Shown one piece after another: positions 3,933 through 11,203 of a stretch of DNA of 49,185 bases (position 1 is its first letter; each line of letters begins with the position of its first letter). The DNA comes from Candidatus Sulfotelmatobacter sp. (GTDB taxonomy: Bacteria > Acidobacteriota > Terriglobia > Terriglobales > Acidobacteriaceae). The notes beneath the pieces are model-generated. The model worked only from the letters and a program-made list of their open reading frames with translations. It made no database searches and had not been told where the DNA came from. A program made the position numbers and the translations under genes. Location: contig JASHOT010000108.1 in NCBI GenBank assembly GCA_030040965.1, positions 1-49,185 of the forward strand, given 5' to 3'.

Positions 3933-4466
3933 CTATTCGTCGTAGTGCAGTAGCGCCATGACGTCGTGATCTTTCAGTTTTTCCCGGCCTTTGAGAAAGT
4001 CGAGTTCGACCACGAATCCCAGCCCGGCGATTTCTCCGCCCAGGGCCTGGGCGAGTTTCACAGTAGCCAACGCAGTTCCTCCCGTAGCCAGCAGATCATC
4101 GACGATGAGAACGCGCTGACCTTTCCGGATGGCATCCTTGTGCACTTCGAGGCAAGCCGTCCCGTACTCAAGATCGTAGTTCTCCTTGATCGTTTCCGCC
4201 GGCAGCTTGCCCGGCTTGCGCACGGGAACAAAACCGGCGTTCAGCCGGTAGGCAAGGGCTGGACCGAAGATAAATCCGCGAGCCTCCATGCCGAGCACGA
4301 GATCGACGGAGCGCGAGATGTAGTACTCGGAAAATTTGTCGATGAGCGTGGCAAAGCCGACTTTATCTTTCAGCAGCGTGGTGATGTCGTAAAAAAGAAT
4401 TCCCTTCTTAGGGAAGTCCGGGACTTCGCGGATGAGCTTCTTCAGTTGGTCGGAGTTCAGGGACAT
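3933..4466 (-). CDS. apt: Adenine phosphoribosyltransferase
   Basis: 177-residue cytosolic purine-salvage enzyme converting adenine and PRPP to AMP and pyrophosphate. Family landmarks are [18 protein letters not shown] near the N-terminus, [18 protein letters not shown], and the PRPP-binding loop [14 protein letters not shown], followed by [13 protein letters not shown]. The length matches bacterial Apt. The start at 4466 ([12 protein letters not shown]) is chosen by family length over an upstream ATG at 4499, which lies inside a repeat element. No clear Shine-Dalgarno sequence is visible. It is the last gene of the minus-strand run efp, acyP, apt. The gap to acyP is filled by octamer element 2. 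Confidence 0.95.
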
Positions 4467-4473
4467 AAGACTC

Positions 4474-4574
4474 AAAGTTTCAAGGTTGCAAAGTTTCAAG
4501 GTCGCAGTGTTCAGAATTCAACTGCGAAACCGAGATTTTTCTTTGCAACATTGAAACGTTGAAACTTTGAAACC
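4474..4574. repeat. Octamer-phased inverted element, copy 2 (most regular)
   Basis: The left array has four exact 8-bp units (4474-4481, 4482-4489, 4490-4497, 4498-4505), alternating AAAGTTTC with AAGGTTGC or AAGGTCGC. A 37-bp spacer follows (4506-4542). The right array has four exact 8-bp units (4543-4550, 4551-4558, 4559-4566, 4567-4574) of the form TTGAAACN, the first being TTGCAACA. The two arrays are complementary in several registers. The right end lies 9 bases from the acyP stop codon and the left end runs into the apt start region. Confidence 0.8.
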
Positions 4575-4583
4575 TGCTCTTTC

Positions 4584-4883
4584 TTACCACGCTCCTTCTA
4601 TGCGAAAAGAATTGAGTCCATCGACCGGCTTCCCGTCGGAAACTTCGACCGCATCTACGCGGGCTGCCCGCGGGCCTTCCCGCAGCCGCGCATGTAGTCC
4701 GGCGAGTTGATCGCGTGTTCCCTGGGCGAGAACTTCCACGCTGCCATCATGATTGTTGCGCACCCATCCAGCAATGCCGAGTATGTGCGCTTCACGCTCC
4801 ACAAACCAGCGAAAGCCGACACCCTGCACCCGTCCGCGCACGATGTAGCGGCGGGCTTCGACGGATTTTTCCGCAGAGCTCAT
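4584..4883 (-). CDS. acyP: Acylphosphatase
   Basis: 99-residue small alpha/beta enzyme hydrolysing acyl phosphates. The catalytic pattern is intact: YIVRGRVQGVGFRWFVEREA, with the phosphate-binding Arg at residue 25, and GWVRNNHDGSVEV, with the catalytic Asn at about residue 43. The C-terminal half follows the family (VDAVEVSDGKPVDGLNSFRIEG). The N-terminal extension MSSAEKSVEARR is slightly longer than the typical 90-residue protein. It lies between efp and apt on the same strand, but the gaps on each side contain repeat elements, so tight co-transcription is uncertain. Confidence 0.95.
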   Translation of the reverse strand: MSSAEKSVEARRYIVRGRVQGVGFRWFVEREAHILGIAGWVRNNHDGSVEVLAQGTRDQLAGLHARLREGPRAARVDAVEVSDGKPVDGLNSFRIEGAW

Positions 4884-4914: not shown

Positions 4915-5126
4915 TTGTCATCCTGAGCGGAGGATCAGCTTCGCGAATGCGAAGCTGATTCGGAGTCGAAGGAACCCTTTCACCTGAATACTTTCCGGGA
5001 ATCTGCTGGGAATTTCAAGCGGAAGAGAACGCCCTGCCACGCCCCTGGCCGCTCATACGGGGTAGGGATCCTTCGACTGCACTGTCGTTCACTTTCAGCG
5101 AACAACAATTTCGCTCAGGATGACAA
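4915..5126. repeat. Composite MITE-like palindromic element
   Basis: The outer 15-bp arms are perfect inverted repeats, TTGTCATCCTGAGCG (4915-4929) and CGCTCAGGATGACAA (5112-5126). A second nested pair is GTCGAAGGA (4965-4973) and TCCTTCGAC (5069-5077). Inside the left half is a perfect 11-bp hairpin, ATCAGCTTCGC / GCGAAGCTGAT (4934-4944 and 4949-4959) with loop GAAT. It occupies most of the efp-acyP gap and carries no coding sequence. It looks like two half elements in head-to-head orientation. Confidence 0.7.
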
Positions 5127-5154
5127 TCTTGCAGGCTCCGTCACGTCACTACAA

Positions 5155-9217: not shown

Positions 9218-10714
9218 CTAGCTGAAGATTCCGGCAAAAATTCCGCGCAGCCGATGGAAAAACCCACCTGACTTGGGTTTCGCCGGCGGCGGAGGCTGAA
9301 CCACAGTTTCGAGGTGCACTTCGCGCACGGAAGAATCGGTTGCAGGCAAGGCTTTCGCAGTCTCCACGGGCGCGGCAGGAATGGAAGCATTCGTTGACGA
9401 CGATCCTGGGGCTGTGCGTTCTTTCGCGTCGAAGACGAAGGGCACATCCACTTGCATGTGAACTTCATTCGGATGCGACGGCGGCACGGGCGCGGTTTCC
9501 GGGCCATTCGAGAGCCGCGTTGACGCGGGATTGCCAGATTCACCGGCAGAATTCGTCGTCGCCGAGGAAGATGCGGGCATCGCCGAACCTCCCAACTGAA
9601 CTTTCTCCGGCAGTCGCGAGTCGGGCATTGGGGTCGTGGAAGTGTCGGTCTTCATCACCGCGGGCGGCGGAGGGCATCCGCATTCGAGAGGAACATTCGC
9701 GTCGACTTTGTCGATCTGCCCGGAGTGAAAGACGGCCTGCTCGGTCGGCTTGACCTGGTAAATGCGGTCGCCCATCAGCTCAGAGACGATCGCCGAAGAC
9801 GTGTTTCCGGCAAGTGTGCGCACACAGGTATTGCCGTGATTGTCGGCGCTGACGGCGAAATGAAAATGGCCGGGACCGGCAAACAGGATGCGGAAGTCAG
9901 GGGTGAGAATCGTGTCGGCCGAGGCGCCCAGCGAATAGTGCGTCTCCAGTCCTCCCGTGCTTATGCCGAGCATGAGATCGCGCTTGGTGCGTGAGGGTGT
10001 AATCGAAATCGTTGTGCCCGGGCAAACGCGAATGTCTCCGCCCCGCGCCAACTGAAGAACCGCCGTCTCCGAACTCGCGGTGACCGATGACCCGGCGGCG
10101 ATTCGCGTCCCGGCAAACACGATCGCCCCCGCTCCTCCCGTGACTGGCACGATCTCAGGAGGCGCATCCAAGGTCGCGTCCGCCGCGGTCGGCGCCTCTG
10201 CCGGTCGTTTGCCTGCGTTCAGATCTTCTGCCGGCTTCAAGCGAACCATCAGGCGATTGCCGGCGCCGTCCCAGGTGTAGGCGTAGGGCGCGAGCAGATC
10301 GAGCACGATACGCGTCACAGGAGGGTCCGCCTTAAACTGATCGGCGCGGATGGCAAGAATGTTTTCTTTCTTGATCGGAATCTGCTTTTGCACGAGGCCG
10401 AGCTTGGAATTCGGCAGATCGATGACCAGACGCGGCGGCGAGTCGAGCGTCTGCACCTCAGGAATGACAGGGCCTCCCTTGGTAACAATCTCAACCGCCG
10501 GCGCTCCGTTTTCCTGCACGATGCGAACGCTCTTGACCGTTGGCGGCGGGCCGAAGGTCTGGGCCGCGACCGCGACGGTCATAAAAATGATCGCGCAAAG
10601 AACGATTGTCCAAGAAACGATCGCCGAAAACACGAAGTTCGAGCGCCCGGCTTGCGCAGTCTGAATCAACCTGGCAGAAAGTTGGAGCAACGAATTCCTC
10701 GCGGGAGTATGCAA
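9218..10714 (-). CDS. Exported AMIN-domain protein with FecR-like middle region
   Basis: 498-residue protein. A hydrophobic signal or anchor segment (about residues 27-50, ending TVAVAAQ) is followed by an AMIN domain ([49 protein letters not shown]; residues about 58-160). The middle (about 195-345) resembles FecR sensor folds, with stretches such as [20 protein letters not shown] long low-complexity Pro/Ser/Thr tail ends [18 protein letters not shown] domains target envelope machines such as amidases and secretins, but no catalytic domain is attached here. The listed start is a TTG with no Shine-Dalgarno sequence; a nearby downstream GTG or TTG could also serve. It follows the PilZ gene across octamer element 3. 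Confidence 0.75.
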
Positions 10715-10756
10715 GGAACATATCAGGCAGAGGGGGGTGGTGGAAAGCGGGAGATC

Positions 10757-10860
10757 AAAGTTGCAAAGTTTCAGAGTTTCAAGGTTTCAGAGTTTCAAAG
10801 TCTTGAGGCTGGAGCCGTGTTTCTGGCGTTGAAACTATGCAACCTTGAGACTTTGAAATC
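10757..10860. repeat. Octamer-phased inverted element, copy 3
   Basis: The left array has six consecutive 8-bp units from 10757 to 10804 (10757-10764, 10765-10772, 10773-10780, 10781-10788, 10789-10796, 10797-10804). Their consensus is ARRGTTTC. A 24-bp spacer follows (10805-10828), then a right array of four units from 10829 to 10860: TTGAAACT, ATGCAACC, TTGAGACT, TTGAAATC. The right end lies 7 bases before the PilZ gene stop codon, with the same CTGCT junction as copy 2. Confidence 0.8.
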
Positions 10861-10867
10861 TGCTTTC

Positions 10868-11203
10868 CTACGCTTCGGGCAGGAATTCATATTCTTCGAT
10901 CACCGCCGCGACGGCGAGTTTGCCATCATCGCGGCCATTTTCCACGCGCACCACGTGTCCCTTGCACTGCACGCGAATGCTTTCGGTGAGCGTGATCTCG
11001 GGGGGCAGGGTCAGCGTGAATCCAATCGGGGATCCCTGTTCCACGGAGGAATCGAGGTAAAAGCAGATGCCGCGAGCGCTGACGTCGCGAATCTGCGCAA
11101 TTTCCTTACCGTGACCGTTGTGATTCTGTCCGTGATCCACGGAGACAGGGACACGCAGCGCAAACCGGCGTGCGGCGCGCTTTTCGTGCTGGAGCTCGGA
11201 CAT
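10868..11203 (-). CDS. PilZ-domain protein
   Basis: 111-residue single-domain protein. The RRFALR motif near residue 12 matches the RxxxR c-di-GMP-binding signature, and IRDVSARGICFYLD matches the D/NxSxxG motif. Beta-strands follow to VENGRDDGKLAVAAVIEEYEF. PilZ proteins bind cyclic di-GMP and modulate motility, secretion or polysaccharide synthesis. With no fused output domain this one would act by protein contact. GGAGGAAG lies 4-5 bases upstream of the ATG. It precedes the AMIN-domain gene on the same strand; the 153-base gap between them contains octamer element 3. Confidence 0.9.
   Translation of the reverse strand: MSELQHEKRAARRFALRVPVSVDHGQNHNGHGKEIAQIRDVSARGICFYLDSSVEQGSPIGFTLTLPPEITLTESIRVQCKGHVVRVENGRDDGKLAVAAVIEEYEFLPEA

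Follow-up and report, generated by a model that had tools for sequence, protein, structure and literature searches.

Inverted arrays of 7- and 8-nt words in the intercistronic spacers of Candidatus Sulfotelmatobacter keep their layout and place while the word is exchanged between species

CRISPR arrays consist of long direct repeats separated by unique spacers, REP sequences flank the gene of a Y1 transposase (RAYT), and the foldback (FB) elements of Drosophila are built of inverted arms of short tandem repeats around a variable interior. According to excerpts of the published accounts, REP sequences are conserved palindromes carrying a GTAG or CGTC tag (PMC3733652), degenerate heptanucleotide repeats form a hairpin in the P6b stem of the cyanobacterial tRNA-Leu intron (PMC3488679), and TAACTGA direct repeats occur in intergenic regions of Beggiatoaceae, Cyanobacteria and Bacteroidetes (PMC4679880).

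The DNA analyzed here (the window) is a stretch of 49,185 nucleotides of a Candidatus Sulfotelmatobacter assembly, G000. At 4469-4573 it holds two converging arrays of GTTTCAAN octamers. The left array (4469-4508, + strand) has the units GACTCAAA GTTTCAAG GTTGCAAA GTTTCAAG GTCGCAGT; the interior or loop (4509-4541) was by eye not common to other copies; and the right array (4542-4573, inverted, - strand) has the units GTTTCAAA GTTTCAAC GTTTCAAT GTTGCAAA. A repeat scan of the window found direct repeats spaced by exactly 8 bp at 4473-4504 and 4543-4573, together with an inverted pair (4477-4506/4544-4573) that is 83% complementary with 37 nt between, with complementarity in other registers also. 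The original prediction of two inverted four-unit octamer arrays, 37 apart, in 8-bp phase and complementary in several registers was thus borne out, as were the further copies it placed near 2828-2894 and 10757-10860. The first of these, at 2831-2893, is degenerate; its arms (2831-2856, + strand, and 2868-2893, inverted, - strand) were found by the inverted-repeat scan and form a weaker pair of 26 nt, 77% complementary and 11 nt apart. The third copy (10752-10859) has a left array at 10752-10807 (+ strand, seven units as scored, the outer ones degenerate) and a right array of four units at 10828-10859 (inverted, - strand); the repeat scan showed five repeats of 62-100% similarity in 8-bp steps at 10755-10810, and placed the right arm at 10829-10858. 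A general inverted-array detector recovered only 4467-4577 of the three window copies, because the other two are more degenerate. RNA folding beat that of shuffled sequences for all three (z -3.55, -4.02 and -2.30). Rfam gave no matches in the window, with one microRNA match far below the gathering threshold (21.6 vs 83 bits).

The inverted unit NTTGAAAC is similar to the 8-nt end that many CRISPR repeats have (ATTGAAAC). As the original prediction had held, the dispersed two-armed element is unlike CRISPR arrays, classical REPs and simple terminators. Its 8-bp units follow one another without spacers and its arms are inverted. Where an intrinsic terminator has a GC-rich stem and a T run, the stem here was AT-rich and mismatched in the foldings of the window copies, and beyond the first three flank positions none exceeded about 0.50 T (A on the other side) in 104 copies. 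The elements are like Drosophila FB elements in having inverted tandem-repeat arms and a variable interior, but they are far smaller, their words are exchanged, and neither a transposase nor a regular target duplication was seen. No octamer array was found within 3.2-3.3 kb around either of two matches to PF01797 in G000, the one genome searched, and an association with RAYT-like genes was rejected on this ground. REP, BIME and REPIN sequences (PMC3733652, PMC3116915, available in excerpt; in part general knowledge) are likewise dispersed extragenic hairpins with inverted pairs and families per genome; they are conserved palindromes, whereas the arms here are tandem 7-8-mers, 8-bp-phased in the octamer elements, and own arms match no better than the arms of other copies. 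The cyanobacterial P6b repeats (PMC3488679, excerpt) have in common with the present elements degenerate 7-nt pairing units, more than one repeat class and change of copy number, but they occupy one locus within an intron, whereas the present elements are dispersed over operon spacers between protein genes, use many words and exchange them at orthologous junctions. The TAACTGA repeats are also short heptamer arrays, intergenic, near start codons and patchy across phyla; in the excerpt of their description, however, they are direct (one inverted set of 170), of a single word and without a two-armed layout (PMC4679880). No description of such arrays was found among the matches listed for the open-licence text searched, and four octamer strings had no match there. 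Nor was a layout held constant at a gene boundary while the word is exchanged found described there for any known family.

In the source assembly (G000; 5.87 Mb in 437 contigs), the 21-mer pattern GTTTCAAAGTTTCAAAGTTTC with up to three mismatches gave 96 matches, which were grouped by hand into 44 places, a count for which the reversed pattern is not a valid control, because reversing the letters of the octamer gives a rotation of its reverse complement. The 38 stretches taken covered 41 places outside the window. Two arms were present in 35 of 45 octamer groups, the other ten being one-sided, and most places showed some four GTTTCAAN units before an interior, with about four inverted units after it. 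A strict one-arm pattern matched in 7 of 19 genomes of the genus, the source included, and in none of 12 others of the order; its reversed-pattern control matched twice each in G002 and G010, and the 12 negative genus genomes were not all strictly free, with a few array-like matches in G005, G009 and G010. The strict two-arm pattern matched in 2 of 109 genomes sampled across the phylum, both in this genus. The search of the genome and its relatives that the original prediction proposed therefore found arrays in both. On an apt+acyP tree, which did not include G013, the carriers did not form a clade; in it G012, a 98% complete genome where no octamer arrays were found, grouped with G002, G004 and G017 (support 0.983) and G007 stood near G000 (support 0.521). 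Outside the Acidobacteriota, the exact 21-mer occurred in Bacteroidota, SAR324 and others among the matches listed. Of the 80 loci read, 16, including some in Acidobacteria, had both orientations by eye; all others were one-sided. One-sided GTTTCAAA arrays were seen in Flavobacteria, SAR324 and Psychrobacter (L051, L062, L063, L068, L089, L103, L110 and other loci), some of the flavobacterial ones using GTGGCAAA and GTAGCAAA units too. In Bacteroidales bins and one bin named Alphaproteobacteria, GTTTCAAA arrays formed the inverted ends of elements, separated by about 210-260 bp (L065:3829-4117, L072:198-467, L119:7372-7658, L120:205-515, L048:5022-5343); with interiors shared in part, these elements resemble a true MITE that ends in octamers.

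In the regions fetched from G000, G001, G004 and G017, 134 octamer groups were counted, 106 two-armed and 28 one-sided. All 106 two-armed copies read + then - (GTTTCAAN...NTTGAAAC) and none - then +. In the 104 copies with refined edges, exactly four units were counted in 50 left and 54 right arms, and the interiors, which by eye vary from copy to copy, had a median length of 27 bp (range 2-169). A different palindromic repeat, TCATCCTGAGCG...CTCAGGATGACA, was observed inside some octamer elements (interiors of L169 and L297) and also elsewhere, including 4916-5128 of the window. Within an arm the eighth letter tended to alternate between A and G in G000, G001 and G004: neighbors had the same letter in 0.29-0.37 of cases for units 1-2 and 2-3, vs about 0.50 (n=52-69), and units 3-4 (0.47 and 0.51) showed no departure from expectation. 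The alternation in the outer three units gives a 16-bp superperiod in these genomes.

At the variable letter, own arms matched in 0.312 of 356 unit pairs vs 0.387 +- 0.025 for permuted partners, and the duplex energy of own arms was less stable than that of permuted ones (-28.49 vs -29.68 +- 0.49 kcal/mol) in 57 copies with co-directional neighbors and at least three units per arm, a set drawn without G017 because many of its copies repeat those of G004. The arms are therefore complementary as arrays and not base by base; if anything, perfect pairing of the arms is avoided. G-U asymmetry was absent at the variable letter (AG 48, GA 53), and over all eight positions wobble-type mismatches in the direction of the transcript numbered 127 vs 102 of the opposite type (summed by hand), which is at most a weak sign. 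An RNA stem maintained by compensatory change found no support at the unit level in the variable letter, the energies or the heptamer reshuffling described below.

Placement was usable for 101 of the 104 copies, genes being called with a home-made caller. Co-directional genes flanked 89 of them, convergent genes ten and divergent genes two, and none lay within a gene; for reference, 576 of 808 gene pairs in the same loci were co-directional. The element edge lay a median of 6 nt past a stop codon and 14 nt ahead of the next start. The window element at 4469-4573 follows the acylphosphatase gene acyP (4584-4883, - strand, PF00708), whose stop is about 10 nt before it on the - strand, and precedes a phosphoribosyltransferase gene, probably apt (3933-4466, - strand, PF00156), the start of which was placed at the ATG at 4466 by comparison with relatives, the ORF list beginning at TTG 4499. 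The third copy lies downstream of a PilZ-domain gene (10868-11203, - strand, PF07238) and upstream of an AMIN-domain gene (9218-10714, - strand, PF11741). The RNA-level 3' structure of the original prediction thus agrees with placement at gene 3' ends, 99 of the 101 placed copies having a stop codon on at least one side, but not in the form of a hairpin conserved base by base. A Shine-Dalgarno core in the right arm had been expected; in 45 compact octamer junctions the core never overlapped an arm (outside the arm in 14, none in 31).

Among 769 orthologous junctions, an octamer in one genome was accompanied by an element in the other in 123 of 193 ordered comparisons and another word by an element in 172 of 257, whereas an element was present opposite a junction without one in 147 of 820; retention was thus 64-67% vs 18%, in comparisons that are not independent and in regions of which many were chosen for holding octamers, so that the 18% baseline is raised as well. 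Opposite an octamer another word stood in 33 cases, and the reverse was seen in 39; a few of these cases involve degenerate octamers that had been labeled differently. Eleven junctions carried elements in at least four species. At the rpsM-rpsK junction (PF00416, PF00411) the words by species were GTTTCAAN, GTACTCA, GTTCTCA, CAGTTGC and GTCSTTG, with octamers in G004 and GTACTCA heptamers in G017, the flanks agreeing as far as the TAA and again from the ATG onward. Ten of the 34 two-armed copies of G000 had their junction in common with each of G001, G004 and G017 in the regions fetched. Arms at the same site were alike in G004 and G017 (0.958 vs 0.888 at random, z 5.8), weakly so in G017-G001 (z 2.3) and G004-G001 (z 1.4), and no more than at random where G000 was compared with the other three (z 0.7, 0.2 and -0.2), with a few G000 sites keeping a related arm by eye (L165 vs G004). 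The site outlives the sequence. At one junction, compared by eye as a single example between G014 and G001, the order of the free letters (G, C, A, T) was kept while TTA became CTA in all four units. At this junction (L296:797; G014, G011 and G002 vs G001 and G012) the same letter seems to have changed at once in every unit of an arm, from TTA to CTA in G001, where the free-letter order is kept, and from TTA to TTG in G012. At two places (L273 opposite L251:12744 and 13524), octamer arrays in G017 face a GAGACGTTGC...GCAACGTCTC palindrome in the aligned stretch of G004.

In more congeners, octamer junctions held other words in the same layout, namely GTAATTGA-type octamers (G012, G003) and the heptamers GCTTTCA, GAGCTAT, CAGTTGC, GTCSTTG and GAGTCGC; some held instead another palindrome or a true short spacer. 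The octamer is thus one of a number of interchangeable words, which could not be seen from the window alone. The general detector, run over periods 5-12, gave 170 elements, 161 of them of period 7 or 8. In the comparison with shuffled sequence also proposed earlier, it found none in one Markov shuffle of each locus, and the arrays are therefore not due to chance. In 392 kb of six congeners, a sample chosen partly in syntenic regions, 49 of the 51 elements had period 7 (42) or 8 (7) and two had others. Elements with GCT words, searched through whole genomes, matched in 17 of 21 genomes of the genus with one reversed-pattern control match overall; several dialects (CTA, TCA and TTR endings) occurred within one genome, and the idea of a species-wide dialect was therefore dropped. 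Another family of the order (nine stretches, 160 kb) had no elements of period 7 or 8 and two of period 6, but three elements were found in 205 kb of other genera of the family and six in 102 kb of other families of the phylum; the general word-array class therefore seems to extend beyond the genus. Repeat finders based on sequence are likely to miss this class because copies with different words do not align.

Both arms fitted a G-Y-...-R frame in 71 of 88 period-7 elements, and the minority fraction by unit position was.02.04.17.33.13.06.12, the fourth letter being the most variable. The word was common to the two arms (agreement 0.82-0.97 at positions 2, 3, 5, 6 and 7 vs 0.53-0.69 when permuted within the genome), and agreement unit by unit was that of reshuffling within the element, within about 1.3 sd at every position. 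For 239 strict tandem arrays in nine genomes, a count that includes octamer-chosen regions, an inverted partner lay within 160 bp in 173-187 and a direct partner in 9-40, depending on the threshold, and 52-66 had no inverted partner; polarity was fixed in 171 of 186.

Several explanations could be considered for these patterns. Mobile foldback or MITE-like elements, in which the word arrays would be terminal sites bound by a trans-acting transposase, are possible but rather unlikely; the same spacers would be refilled because operon spacers behind stop codons are tolerated or targeted. The acyP-apt junction, read in 18 genomes, was filled in three, compact in 14 and occupied by unrelated sequence in one (G006), and G017 differed from the empty G004, about 95% identical around the site, by the element plus a 12-bp flanking duplication (ACCACGCTCCTT), with a possible degenerate duplication by eye in G001. 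Matches of 6 bp between the flanks occurred in 14 of 104 copies vs 7.5 expected, and mobility would also agree with the patchy, non-monophyletic carriers in the genus and the common interiors of the Bacteroidales copies. However, the 12-bp case was the only flank match longer than 7 bp among the 104 copies, a second copy of the G017 interior, the one element searched, was absent among the matches listed for five genomes, the interiors are by eye unlike between copies, and no octamer arrays lay beside the two Y1 transposase-like genes of G000. The right arms of G001 and G017 at acyP-apt look related by eye, and the empty state of G004 may therefore be a loss. Transposition of one parent element was accordingly left unsupported by the flank duplications and the interior search. 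The self-propagating element of the original prediction is weakly supported by the filled and empty sites and the one clear 12-bp duplication, no parent copy of the element searched and no mobilizing gene having been found. Two G000 copies (L164, L170) have interior and flanks in common, as in a duplicated locus.

In many bacteria slippage gives rise to short tandem arrays, and a run of eight identical GTTTCAAG units in G001 could be of this kind. Neutral replication slippage with quasi-palindrome formation, without machinery or function, is nevertheless improbable in view of the fixed polarity, the inverted partners, the junction-specific retention and the absence from shuffles; moreover, hairpin-templated copying would make the arms match unit by unit, which they do not. 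Iteron-like arrays, bound by a protein that recognizes the word in DNA or RNA irrespective of the free letter, would fit the low variation of framework letters within an arm and the one letter that is the most variable, but with many words per genome and per orthologous junction many factors would have to change together, and we consider this quite improbable. A telomerase-like enzyme could extend both 3' ends of a staggered break with repeats of the word, one letter in each cycle being untemplated, and the joined ends would give inverted arms with independent free letters. The fixed polarity on both 3' ends, the word common to the arms, the independent free letters and the one staggered-type duplication would fit, and repeat-adding bacterial reverse transcriptases exist (DRT10, as described in an excerpt of PMC12632851). 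On the other hand, adjacent free letters alternate A/G instead of being random, the interiors are left unexplained, RVT_1 was not found in the array-bearing G007, G011 and G031 but was found in octamer non-carriers, and no tandem octamer template was present at 12 loci inspected of 40 RVT_1 rows. A reverse transcriptase as the agent was rejected on this mismatch of distribution and on the 12 inspected loci, and little credence is given to repeat addition as a whole. In a bolder form, the arrays would be written instead of copied: wherever an operon spacer breaks, an activity that adds repeats from a short, exchangeable template would put the same 6-7-nt word and a free letter onto both 3' ends, so that a genome would have several hundred (extrapolated) re-writable hairpins at fixed gene boundaries; this is very improbable.

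Because layout, polarity and place are kept while sequence is not, we tentatively favor, as a possibility somewhat short of probable, intercistronic foldback elements whose arms pair free of register, with layout and place kept and the word free. Such an element, as seen in these soil Acidobacteria, has some four copies of a 7- or 8-nt word, a short variable interior and some four copies of that word reversed. In the mRNA the arms could pair, whatever the register, to form a long imperfect hairpin. This would fold the spacer away and hold the stop codon of one cistron close to where the next one starts; it may also insulate the transcript or protect it. The layout and the place would then be maintained by selection, and the word and the free letter left to turn over. 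Perfect DNA palindromes are unstable, which is probably why perfect pairing is avoided. The two-armed layout, its single polarity in the octamer copies, the post-stop placement between co-directional genes and never inside them, the presence at orthologous junctions and the exchange of the word between species were all observed directly, and register-free hairpins are further favored by the predominance of periods 7 and 8, the excess of inverted over direct partners and the folding of the window copies. Against them stand the absence of base-pair-level coevolution and of G-U asymmetry at the variable letter, the Shine-Dalgarno cores that never overlap an arm, and the strict arrays and octamer groups that are one-sided.

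If register-free hairpins are the correct reading, the question would be raised of what selects for a foldback spacer between cistrons, and of how a whole set of units is swapped while the flanking genes stay about 95% identical. Essential operons, including rpsM-rpsK, would then carry an element defined by its layout and place and not by its sequence.
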